Shown: piece after piece, positions 11,515 through 14,361 of the stretch
Layout: every line of letters begins with the position of its first letter
Numbering within the stretch: the stretch's first letter is position 1
Origin: Luteolibacter sp. SL250
GTDB taxonomy: Bacteria > Verrucomicrobiota > Verrucomicrobiia > Verrucomicrobiales > Akkermansiaceae
Length of the DNA stretch: 64,000 nt
Assembly: GCF_026625605.1 (NCBI RefSeq)
Contig: NZ_CP113054.1
Span: 3,410,001 to 3,474,000, forward strand
Direction: 5' to 3'
The notes under the pieces: generated by a model
What the model was told of the DNA's origin: nothing
The model's database searches: none
Seen by the model: the letters and a program-made list of their open reading frames with translations, nothing else
Translations under genes and position numbers: made by a program

Positions 11515-14361
11515 ATGTCTGATCAGGACGATCTTTTTTCCCCATTCTCTCCGGAGAAGCGCATGGCGCAGCTGGGTGCCGAACTCACCCGCCACAACCT
11601 CCTTTACTACACCCAGGCCGCCCCGGAGATCTCCGATGCGGAATACGACAAGCTGTTCCGGGAACTGGAGGATCTGGAGAAGGCGCACCCGGAATTCGCC
11701 AATCCGGACTCCCCCACCCAGCGCGTCGGTGGCGAGCCGATCTCCGGCTTCGTCCAGATCCAGCACCGTGTGCCGATGCTGAGCATCGATGACGTCTTCG
11801 AACTGAAGAAAGAGGACGAAACCACCATCGCGGAGGCCGAACTCATTTCCTTTTACAACCGGCTGCGCAAAAACCTCGGGCGGGAGGACATCTCCGTCAC
11901 CGTGGAGCCGAAGATCGATGGGGTTGCGGTCTCGCTTCTCTACGAGAACGGAAAACTGAAATACGCGGCCACCCGGGGCGACGGCACCACCGGCGATGAC
12001 ATCACGCACAACGTGCGGACGATCCGCAGCATCCCCCTGCAGCTTTCTTTCCAACGGACCACGCCTTACAGCCACGGTCTTGACCTCGAACAACTGCTGC
12101 CTTACCTTCCAAGCCATGGACGCGGAAGCTCGGAAAGAAATGCGCGAAGCTCGGCTGAAGGCTTGGCAAAGCGGCTTGAAGATGACCTCCGATCAAGTGA
12201 TGGAGCGGATGTTCCGCAACGGCTCCGACAGGAAGCCGAATCCATTCTTAACTGGGGAATTGATTCTGGAAGGCTCCTCGCGCCAGACCACCTGGTTGAA
12301 CTCACCGAAAACTGGCGGGAACTAGGTGGTCAGTCCGAGCACACTGTTTTTCATATACCGGCGCTGAGCCGCGTGGTGAAATTCACTCTGCCGCCATATT
12401 TTGGCGCGCAAGGTAGCATCGCCTACCTAAGGAATATCGGTGCTTCGAATGAACTTTTCGGTGATGATATCTGGTTTCACGGAATCATCCGAACCCAGAA
12501 AGGACCCGCCTTTGTCATTTCCCAACCGTACGTTGAGGGATGTGAGCCTTCGACGGAAGACGTGGAACAATGGTTCGTCGAGAAAGGTTATCATCCTACC
12601 GGCCACAACCGATGGCTGCACGACTCCGGGGAAGTGGAAATCGCCGATGCCCATGTCGGCAATCTGATCAAAACCGCGGACGGCAGCTTGGTTCCCATCG
12701 ACCTACAGGTTCTTCGCTATCAATCGCCCATCGTCCCCGCTCCTGTTGTCCCTTCTCTATTTGAGGTCCGCGGTGAGATCTTCATGCCGAACGCCGCATT
12801 CGCCGCGATGAACGCGGAACGGGACGAGGCAGGGCTTCCGGTGTTTGCGAACCCGCGCAACTCCACCGCAGGCACGCTGAAGCAACTGGACCCGAAGATC
12901 GCGGCGAAGCGTCCGCTGCGGTTCATCGCCCACGGGTTGGGTGCCTATGAAGGCCCGGCATTGGCGAGCGAGGATGACTTCATCGAGTTGCTCCGATCGC
13001 TCGGCCTGCCGACCAACGATCCGCACCTGCGTGCGGACAATCTCGAAGAGTTGCTCACACAGGTCGCCACCATCGAGAAGGCGCGCCATGATTTCGACTA
13101 CGGGACGGATGGCGCGGTCATCAAGGTGCTGGACCGCTCCGAGCGTGAAAAACTCGGCACTACTTCCCGCGCCCCGCGCTGGGCGGCGGCCTACAAGTTC
13201 CTGCCGGAGCAGAAGGAGACGGACATCAACGACATCCTCATCCAGGTGGGGCGCACCGGCGTCCTGACCCCGGTGGCGGATCTCACGCCGGTTCTCATTT
13301 CCGGCTCCACGGTTTCCCGTGCCACCCTCCACAACCAGGACGAGATCGACCGCAAGGACATCCGAATCGGGGCGACGGTGCTGATCGAGAAAGCCGGTGA
13401 GATCATCCCGGCGGTGGTCCGTGTGCTGTCGCACAAACCGGATGCCGTTCCCTACAATCTCTTCGCCGCCGTTTCCGGGAAATGCCCGTCCTGCGGCGGT
13501 CCCATCGAGCAGGAGGAAGGCTTCGTCGCCTGGCGCTGCGTCAACTTCCAGTGCCCGGCACAGGCGGTCAACCGCATCTCCCATTTCGCCTCACGCAAGG
13601 CCCTCGATATCGATGGACTCGGCGGCATCGTTGCGGAGGCGCTGGTCCGCCACGGCCATGCCAGCACGCCGCTGGACCTGTTCAGCCTGACGGAAGAAAC
13701 GCTGGCCAACCTCAACCTGGGAACGGAGGAAGCGCCCCGACGATTCGGTGAAAAGAACGCCGCGAAGGTGCTGGCAGCCCTCCAAGCAGCGCGCACCAAG
13801 CCGCTCAACCGCTGGCTGTTCGCCATGGGCATCCGCCATCTCGGTGAATCCGCCGCGAAGGAGTTGGCACGCCTTCATGAAAGGCTCAGCGCCATCCCGG
13901 AGTCCCCTATCCTCTCGGAACTCCTGAAGGACACCCGCGCGACAGCAAAGAAGCAGAACGCCTTCCTTTCCCAATACAACATCACCGGGGATGTGGGGCC
14001 GAGTGTTTCCGCATCGATCATTTCCTTTTTCCAGTCGGAGGCGGGTCGCCATGTCATCGAACGGTTGAAGGATCTGGGGATCGATCCGGTTTCCGACAAC
14101 TACCTCCCTGTCCTGGATGCGGCGGATCTTTCCTCCCTCCCGCTGGCCGGAAAGACGTTCGTCATCACCGGGACGCTCACCATGGACCGCGACGACATGA
14201 AGGCGCTGATCGAGTCCAAGGGCGGGAAGGTCACCGGCTCCGTCTCCGCGAAGACCCACTACGTGCTGGCGGGCGAAGGCGGCGGATCGAAGCGGGACAA
14301 GGCGGAAAAGCTGGGGGTGGCCATCATTTCGGAAGCGGATCTGGAAGGCATGCTCGGCTGA
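11515..14361 (+). CDS. ligA: NAD-dependent DNA ligase LigA with a large domain insertion
   Basis: LigA seals nicks in DNA using NAD+ and is essential in most bacteria. All expected parts are present: domain Ia (about 17-60, [15 protein letters not shown]), adenylation motif [11 protein letters not shown] with catalytic Lys133, [10 protein letters not shown], motif [12 protein letters not shown] (416-424), [17 protein letters not shown], the OB fold, a four-cysteine zinc finger (CPSCGG then CVNFQCPAQ), helix-hairpin-helix repeats and a C-terminal BRCT domain. The protein is 948 residues against a usual 670-700. The excess is residues about 179-408, inserted between IRSIPLQL and FEVRGE, described separately. 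The reading frame is continuous across the insertion. The start ATG at 11515 gives a short but normal N terminus. Confidence 0.95.
12049..12738 (+). other. in-frame insertion in ligA encoding a kinase-like (polyvalent-kinase-type) domain
   Basis: LigA residues about 179-408 have no counterpart in ordinary LigA. Residues about 240-402 resemble a small kinase-like domain: a lysine strand SRVVKF (Lys289), [21 protein letters not shown], a catalytic-loop-like ADAHVGNLI and a VPID motif in place of DFG. The same landmarks occur in the same order in the stand-alone gene at 53401-54090. The first part (about 180-238) is Ser/Arg-rich and unconvincing as protein; a different frame there encodes a better small ORF (12116-12325). 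Local GC is lower than in the flanks (26 of 60 bases in 12421-12480 against 38 of 60 in 11941-12000). No intein motifs are visible. Boundaries are approximate. Confidence 0.8.
12116..12325 (+). CDS. small ORF inside the ligA insertion, +1 frame (possible relic gene)
   Basis: A 69-residue frame starts at the ATG at 12116 and overlaps ligA in the +1 frame. It begins [20 protein letters not shown] and is highly charged and helical, more protein-like than the ligA frame across the same bases. It may be the first gene of the inserted cassette, now trapped inside ligA. No family is recognised, and expression is unproven. Confidence 0.3.

Follow-up and report, generated by a model that had tools for sequence, protein, structure and literature searches.

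The 64,000-nucleotide window analysed here belongs to Luteolibacter sp. SL250 (NZ_CP113054.1, positions 3,410,001 to 3,474,000 of the forward strand) and contains ligA, the gene for the NAD+-dependent DNA ligase LigA, whose open reading frame (ORF) holds a large in-frame insert. The insert encodes a kinase domain in the ligA frame and a second, nested ORF in the +1 frame, for which the label smo was coined in this analysis. The features of the locus, in window positions, are as follows.

11515-14361, + strand: ligA, NAD+-dependent DNA ligase with in-frame insert; single open frame of 948 aa, no internal stop
12049-12747, + strand: insert (LigA residues ~179-411), made up of linker, smo/kinase cassette, linker
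12080-12085, + strand: -35-like hexamer TTGACC, inside ligA codons; TTGAC in 34 of 36 inserts
12103-12108, + strand: -10-like hexamer TACCTT, 17 bp past the -35-like hexamer and 7 nt ahead of the smo start codon
12116-12325, + strand: smo, nested ORF in the +1 frame, 69 aa, TAG stop
12220-12720, + strand: Kinase-PolyVal domain in the ligA frame, residues ~236-402, with invariant E275, K289, Q337, D378, N383 and D396
12379-12381, + strand: codon of Lys289, which the motif R-V-V-K-F marks as the ATP-binding lysine; unchanged in all 36 inserts
12646-12663, + strand: codons 378-383, DAHVGN, catalytic-loop D....N; D378 and N383 invariant in 36 of 36
12700-12702, + strand: codon of Asp396 in PIDLQ, at the DFG-Asp position; unchanged in all 36 inserts

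Genomes are denoted below by G numbers and loci by L numbers; the genus sample comprised 73 genomes, and the insert alignment 36 inserts. The single frame of 948 codons, already described in an earlier note on this DNA, encodes all LigA domains, namely the adenylation domain (in two stretches, with the insert between them), OB, Zn finger, HhH and BRCT. Its product scored 734 bits against the NCBIfam equivalog PRK07956 (cut-off 369) and 682.6 bits against TIGR00575 (cut-off 444.45), the KxDG site (E131-P-K133-I-D135-G136) was invariant across a 29-row LigA alignment, and ligA was the only PF01653 gene found in the single-contig 4.92-Mb genome. Alignment with E. coli LigA (2owo) covered residues 13-178 and 412-948, leaving residues ~179-411 as extra, and other solved LigA proteins likewise flanked ~179-411; the earlier note had placed the extra part at residues ~179-408 (12049-12738), which is correct within a few codons. 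A model of the whole LigA (predicted local distance difference test, pLDDT, 78.8; predicted TM-score, pTM, 0.47; low-confidence stretches at residues 181-188, 201-211 and 405-409) kept the LigA fold around the insert, matching solved LigA adenylation-domain chains with TMt values of 0.71-0.86.

The nearest relative, G071, has no insert. Its LigA is 95-96% identical, with 90% DNA identity over most of the flanks; the DNA alignment stops at 12038 and restarts at 12763, and the loop between fixed points measures 254 residues here against 23 in G071 and 23 to 40 in 23 insert-free rows. The difference between the two genomes may reflect a gain in this genome or a loss in G071. GC content at third codon positions was lower in the insert than in the ligase in 34 of 36 inserts, a comparison that the overlapping frame itself distorts. 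The earlier note had raised an assembly join and a second intact ligA as grounds for doubt; a recent assembly join or a pseudogene could be ruled out, since the insert lies at the identical site in assemblies of many species and one intact ligA, the sole PF01653 gene, is present here. Directly upstream of ligA, a near-perfect inverted repeat, ggagggaggacactcctgtcctccctcc (11438-11484), drew sub-threshold Rfam miRNA matches and is perhaps the terminator of the upstream gene.

The kinase domain in the ligA frame

The insert is a member of the Kinase-PolyVal family (PF18762), a minimal kinase with an intact-looking active site. The family profile matched with 36 bits in whole LigA and with 39.5 (7.3e-10) and 40.1 bits in the insert alone (cut-off 27), which agrees with the proposal of the earlier note that a kinase-like cassette extra to the normal LigA lies in frame between adenylation motifs I and III. 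The note had suggested a search of the insert against kinase and polyvalent-protein families. All of the landmarks cited there (KF, NELF, QPYVEG, ADAHVGN and VPID) are present, and their key letters (K, N..F, QP, D, G-N and PID) are invariant or nearly so in the 36 inserts, while others vary; E275, K289, Q337, D378, N383 and D396 are invariant in every one. By motif, we take K289 to contact ATP, D378 and N383 to be catalytic and D396 to bind Mg. According to the main text of Iyer et al. 2017 (PMC5512222), the marks of the family are an intact active site, a Glu before strand 2, a Gln in the last strand of the N-lobe and no C-lobe. A further family feature is an insert between the conserved His and Asp of phosphotransfer, and any placing of this His in the LigA insert would be tentative. 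In the insert model, which was built from 25 sequences (pLDDT 83.6, pTM 0.79), E275 and Q337 are residues 90 and 152, placed before strand 91-96 and within strand 145-153, and the model ends in short strands around the DFG-like Asp, with the helical C-lobe absent.

Protein kinases also matched the model structurally, with a best Foldseek E of 3.5e-04 (CK2) and query TM-scores of just 0.27-0.36 among the matches listed, and VIA-align gave Z of 7.7 for Stk1, 7.1 for OspG and 6.7 for NleH1, OspG and NleH being small effector kinases. Since a structural Z under 8 is modest, the family assignment is based on the profile and the residues. The insert had no match in PHROGs, and neither did its profile among PDB sequences. 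The suggestion of the earlier note that the insert was merely tolerated was not supported: none of the 36 inserts departs from the catalytic residues, and the median ratio of nonsynonymous to synonymous differences (pN/pS) is 0.33 in the kinase, compared with 0.33 and 0.27 in the flanking ligase parts. The insert is predicted to be an active kinase.

Further matches to the family occurred at two other places in this genome. A 229-aa ORF in the window (53401-54090, + strand) resembles Kinase-PolyVal weakly and distantly (25.3 bits, below the cut-off of 27) and lies about 65 bp from a tRNA-Val gene (54157-54231, - strand), which suggests a second element at a tRNA. At L037 (G000:C1:3810999-3814107), two long open frames of 872 and 1688 codons each contain a Kinase-PolyVal domain, and neither was matched by the smo profile.

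The nested ORF smo and its promoter-like element

In all 36 inserts a start codon (35 ATG, 1 GTG) occupies a fixed position in the +1 frame and is followed by an open frame of 68-84 codons, the conserved predicted product of which, Smo, has about 70 aa and begins with MN. Constraint in this region follows the +1 frame. At residues ~216-260, DNA identity exceeded protein identity in close pairs (90% vs 73% for G030/G062), and codon-phase entropy showed that position 1 of the ligA codons, corresponding to the wobble position of the +1 frame, was the most variable in residues 196-250 and 261-270, though not in 251-260, with position 3 the most variable elsewhere. Differences between G030 and G062 were distributed over the three codon positions as 11:1:0 in the overlap vs 18:15:70 in the kinase, and the proportion of synonymous differences (pS) was 0.35 in the overlap vs 0.55-0.68 in the other three parts. 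The same codon-phase flip was present at residues 310-355 of ten copies embedded in another enzyme, NspC, with 7:2:2 in the overlap vs 7:1:42 for the pair L236/L237.

Ahead of smo, and within ligA codons, lies a promoter-like element in which TTGAC is followed, after a 17-bp spacer, by a TAYNNT-like hexamer that ends 7 nt short of the start codon. The full pattern of promoter and start was found in 33 of 36 inserts vs 1.08 expected under synonymous codon redraw, a contrast between related rows that is not to be read as a p-value. The V/I/L codon supplying the TT of TTGAC ends in T in 35 of 36 inserts, compared with 14% of such codons across ligA genes. Outside LigA, the arrangement TTGAC-17-TA....-7/8-start was observed at the polyvalent loci L176/L208 and L211, at L215, and at the stand-alone loci L043, L142 and L223. 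By computation, smo is a conserved nested ORF in the +1 frame with a promoter-like pattern, and most probably a second gene overlapping the kinase. Because of the 7-nt gap between the -10-like hexamer and the start codon, the smo mRNA is probably leaderless; Smo would be made from its own transcript and may interact with the kinase or control it.

Distribution, movement and other hosts of the cassette

Insert-free relatives, which the earlier note had proposed to look for, were found. At the LigA site, 66 of the 73 genus genomes could be scored, giving 38 full inserts, 6 deletion stubs, 21 genomes with none (including G071) and one insert cut inside (G093). G034 and G092 were counted as full from contig-cut inserts and stand outside the 36 aligned; the seven unscored genomes gave either no match (G007, G031, G060 and G067) or fragments without the site (G003, G010 and G014). 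In ten insert-free genus genomes a close kinase was looked for outside ligA and not found, the best match (E 2e-28) lying in a frame of 1950 codons. The LigA fusion was also found in other genera of the family (G337, G390, G652, G659, G698, G721, G730 and partly G729) and in one genome outside it, G495. The insert as ordinary LigA sequence of the whole lineage could be ruled out, as all 22 genomes that represented other families of the order in this comparison matched LigA in two pieces without it. Named loci matching the insert profile numbered 43 in a scan that used two exact peptide patterns and sees close relatives only; all were Verrucomicrobiota metagenome-assembled genomes, mostly labelled Akkermansiaceae, Verrucomicrobiaceae or genera thereof, including Luteolibacter, and 42 were LigA fusions, contig-cut pieces or stubs, the remaining one (L142) being a stand-alone kinase.

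The end points of the stubs vary. G006 and G020 retain the promoter and smo region without the kinase core, G019 retains the C-terminal half only, and G035, G036 and G033 retain almost nothing. One open ligA frame persists in five of the six, while that of G019 is split over two contigs. Thus smo without the kinase core occurs in 2 of 6 stubs and an intact kinase without smo in none of these few cases; smo was present in all 36 aligned LigA inserts, so that no intact kinase lacked it there. Some further observations concern the site and its genomes. A repeat encoding IQNSKFKIP-like peptides is found at the 3′ junction (right linker) of inserts in several species, e.g. L006, L007 and L012, and also at the empty site of G085 (L077), and is perhaps a remnant or a recombination seam. 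G087, whose main LigA has the insert, carries a second diverged LigA-like gene (L098, G087:C90; ~33-35% identical, 693-codon open frame). Two insert-bearing genomes have a second smo locus, one with its own stand-alone kinase (L042, G018:C36) and one without a detected kinase (L218, G084:C265).

Presence and absence mapped on the insert-free ligase tree required at least 18 changes with stubs scored as absent, a rough count, since the tree was a quick one that left 25 of its 65 inner branches unresolved and misplaced one outgroup row. With 'full' as the label, 14 changes are forced by well-supported branches, and since 57 of 500 shuffles reached a count as low as observed, presence hardly tracks ligase phylogeny. 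The trees themselves conflict. By approximately unbiased (AU) tests, the ligase body rejected the insert clades G030+G062 (p-AU 3.6e-07) and a 16-row clade (p-AU 4e-178), while the insert data rejected the ligase clades G030+G009 (p-AU 5.4e-05), G023+G073 (2e-113) and G075+G065+G086+G029+G066 (3.8e-05). These tests were confined to LigA, with groups named after the trees were seen and with quick trees without a mixture model; read in that light, they reject simple vertical inheritance with losses. The switch falls at the insert borders: in all ligase bins of both flanks the DNA of G030 is nearer to that of G009 than to that of G062, whereas inside the insert G030/G062 share 67-90% and G030/G009 57-75% DNA identity. 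Because insert and ligase trees conflict, the LigA cassette has moved between species, and the mechanism would most simply be recombination in conserved flanking codons.

The smo profile matched in 71 of 386 genomes of the order and in 11 of 384 genomes of a class-wide sample, in which only G966 falls outside the order. We examined 44 smo loci (38 new and 6 earlier, 3 of them duplicates and 7 of them LigA). A kinase match, in some cases partial, lay within 600 nt of smo in 42 of the 44, and the kinase pieces kept a constant frame relative to smo in 41 of those 42, L217 being broken into two frames. At more distant stand-alone kinases the profile had no match, and no smo was seen by eye in eight. 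One group of hosts is the carboxynorspermidine decarboxylase NspC, of which three copies were scanned and scored 467-475 bits against TIGR01047 (cut-off 409). A search of 239 genomes gave a match of any kind in 180 and an interrupted NspC in 10, with the query colinear in all 10; relatives ~90-97% identical lack the insert, and junctions were read in five. GlgB is interrupted in 1 of 39 genomes of its genus, in an ORF open at the contig end; in the three relatives for which an N-terminal piece was listed, the matches cover residues 1-34/39 and 291/296-942 on either side of an empty site. The patchiness of NspC resembles that of LigA, and GlgB is a single known case.

Polyvalent proteins with an LPD3 domain (L176, L208) or an LPD37 domain (L177, L209, L211) also host the cassette, L176 and L177 on IMG/VR viral contigs, and further settings are the large ORFs L215 and L222 and stand-alone pairs of kinase and smo. 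L215 and L222 were called polyvalent in the kinase tree by ORF size, and a domain scan of L215 found no polyvalent domain. In the stand-alone pairs, a kinase-frame ATG lies 4 nt (L050) or 13 nt (L142) ahead of the smo ATG. In a tree of 55 kinases, the LigA inserts formed one clade (100/100) and the NspC inserts another (99/94), with GlgB separate; on this evidence, and within the limits of the sample, each host was entered once. The earlier note had missed smo, its promoter-like element, the spread and swapping across species, the stubs and the NspC, GlgB and polyvalent copies, because comparison was needed to see them.

Nature of the cassette

Taking as computed observations the open frame, its conservation, the nested ORF with its promoter pattern, the range of hosts, the conflict of the LigA trees and the stubs, we consider it probable, if far from certain, that two overlapping genes here form a mobile gene-within-a-gene cassette, a toxin-antitoxin-like or anti-phage conflict module living inside host enzymes. 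In the ligA frame, the minimal kinase would need no start or stop of its own and would be made as an internal domain of full-length LigA, whereas in the +1 frame Smo would be started at its own ATG from the internal promoter on a leaderless mRNA. Close relatives are found in polyvalent proteins, of which two are on proviral contigs, and in stand-alone pairs. One founding insertion would have reached the LigA loop, another NspC and another GlgB. In LigA, the cassette would then have spread between species at a fixed site by recombination anchored in the conserved flanking codons, with later loss by in-frame deletion, as enforced by the reading frame of an important enzyme. The kinase would most likely be an effector carried on an enzyme that the cell keeps making, with the separately expressed Smo restraining or licensing it, and lodging in such a frame would punish all except in-frame deletions. 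A role in defence or addiction is suggested because the kinase family is predicted to act in genome conflicts (main text of PMC5512222), because close relatives sit in prophage-type proteins, because patchiness and swapping suit such modules, and because two stubs retain smo after losing the kinase core, whereas every intact kinase among the 36 is accompanied by smo.

Several observations weigh against this reading of a mobile conflict cassette. The phase flip, clear in close pairs, is weak in several distant ones (9:7:9 for LigA G016/G013; 14:13:13 for NspC L236/L233). Among the LigA inserts, G018 has lost both promoter hexamers, the -10 of G077 is weak and its start codon is GTG, and G066 has TTGAA as its -35; elsewhere, just 6 of the 34 distinct non-LigA loci have the promoter in its strict form, the others having one that is weaker, differently spaced (NspC) or absent. 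Smo has no relatives in Pfam, NCBIfam and PADLOC, and against PDB it gave weak haemocyanin matches only, which are implausible and were taken as chance. No target motif common to the LigA and NspC junctions was seen, no mobility enzyme was noticed, although no systematic search for one was made, and searches of 50,697 phage and 72,556 plasmid records yielded no match. The ligA frame is broken in 2 of the 38 full cases (G069, between the N-terminal part and the insert, and G017, near the C-terminal end). Finally, the cassette, Smo and the kinase are known here from sequences and models.

Alternatively, the insert could be a regulatory domain that serves the host, the kinase modifying LigA or its replication and repair partners with Smo as a regulatory subunit, and kept as helpful to the cell rather than as a parasite or defence system. 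The strong purifying selection on kinase and Smo, the fixed position and the LigA fold kept around the insert would all suit such a domain; however, the insert is absent from the nearest relative, changed between presence and absence at least 18 times along the ligase tree, and recurs in NspC (polyamine), GlgB (glycogen) and prophage-type proteins, so that it is not tied to ligation, and we regard this explanation as unlikely, albeit worth keeping in mind. A passive passenger, inserted in frame into a loop that tolerates it and merely carried along, is very improbable: a loop that varies from 23 to 40 residues among insert-free rows, frequent losses and the two broken ligA frames agree with it, but the invariant catalytic residues, a kinase pN/pS like that of the ligase and a smo conserved in the second frame do not. 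It is just as improbable that the +1-frame signal is something other than a gene, for instance a regulatory or recombination element acting at the level of DNA or RNA. Smo is predicted from sequence alone and has no database relative, as noted above; still, the constraint has +1-frame codon periodicity in LigA and NspC copies alike, start codon and open frame are kept in 36 of 36 inserts, and homologous proteins occur in stand-alone and polyvalent loci with an unchanged relative frame.

Splicing of an intein or intron, which would leave a LigA of normal size, is the explanation to which we give the least credence, and we found no support for it. It would account for the intein-like patchiness at one site and the location in important enzymes, but no Hint/intein or homing-endonuclease domain appeared among Pfam matches to LigA up to E 1, no Rfam group I/II intron family matched in 9000-17000 up to E 1 (solely sub-threshold miRNA- and snoRNA-type matches occurred), and the ligA frame is open throughout. 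The right junction also lacks HN-C/S/T, which we take to be the motif expected of an intein there.

We then compared the proposed conflict cassette with known systems. The kinase belongs to the identical truncated family, bearing its marks, for which Verrucomicrobia is given as a bacterial lineage in the main text of PMC5512222 and whose role is so far only predicted there. That text describes the family in phage and conjugative polyvalent proteins and alone, without mention of insertion in LigA, NspC or GlgB or of a nested +1-frame gene with a promoter, and the words 'overlapping', 'inserted' and 'housekeeping' are absent from it. In the literature we found no description of a kinase inside LigA, NspC or GlgB, nor of the nested gene, most subscription papers lying outside the search. 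Inteins and homing elements, the subject of PMC5784728 and PMC3229294, are similar in lying in frame in conserved enzymes, with empty sites in close relatives and horizontal spread at a fixed site. Here, by contrast, no splicing or endonuclease domain was found, and the insert seems to remain part of the protein, with a second gene concealed in it. HipBA-type toxin-antitoxin modules too combine a small protein with a kinase-fold effector inherited together, and here the small gene is kept without the kinase core in two of only six stubs; unlike in those, the small gene lies inside the coding sequence of the effector in another frame, the effector is fused into a housekeeping enzyme, and its toxin role is putative. 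Rickettsia palindromic elements are mobile sequences in frame in unrelated protein genes, but they are short and not known to contain an enzyme or a nested gene. Inteins splice, palindromic elements are not known to carry genes, and we know of no toxin-antitoxin pair built into a housekeeping enzyme as a domain, its second gene read in a different frame; by this comparison, no kind of genetic element known to us matches the cassette.

It is quite possible, though we advance it tentatively, that the cassette represents a new class of mobile element, a promoter-bearing two-frame pair that stays unspliced in essential or core enzymes, uses the host frame as an anchor against loss, spreads between species at fixed sites, jumps between unrelated host genes and prophage polyvalent proteins, and acts as an addiction or anti-phage module. 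If true, this would add a lifestyle of mobile DNA that neither breaks genes nor splices, riding instead as a domain of a needed enzyme with a private promoter and a second-frame gene, and it would allow a direct test of whether selfish or defensive modules avoid deletion by hiding in essential reading frames. Annotation may miss such genes, since callers that forbid full same-strand overlap would drop nested genes like smo. The fusion to a purifiable ligase makes the kinase substrates and the small partner testable.

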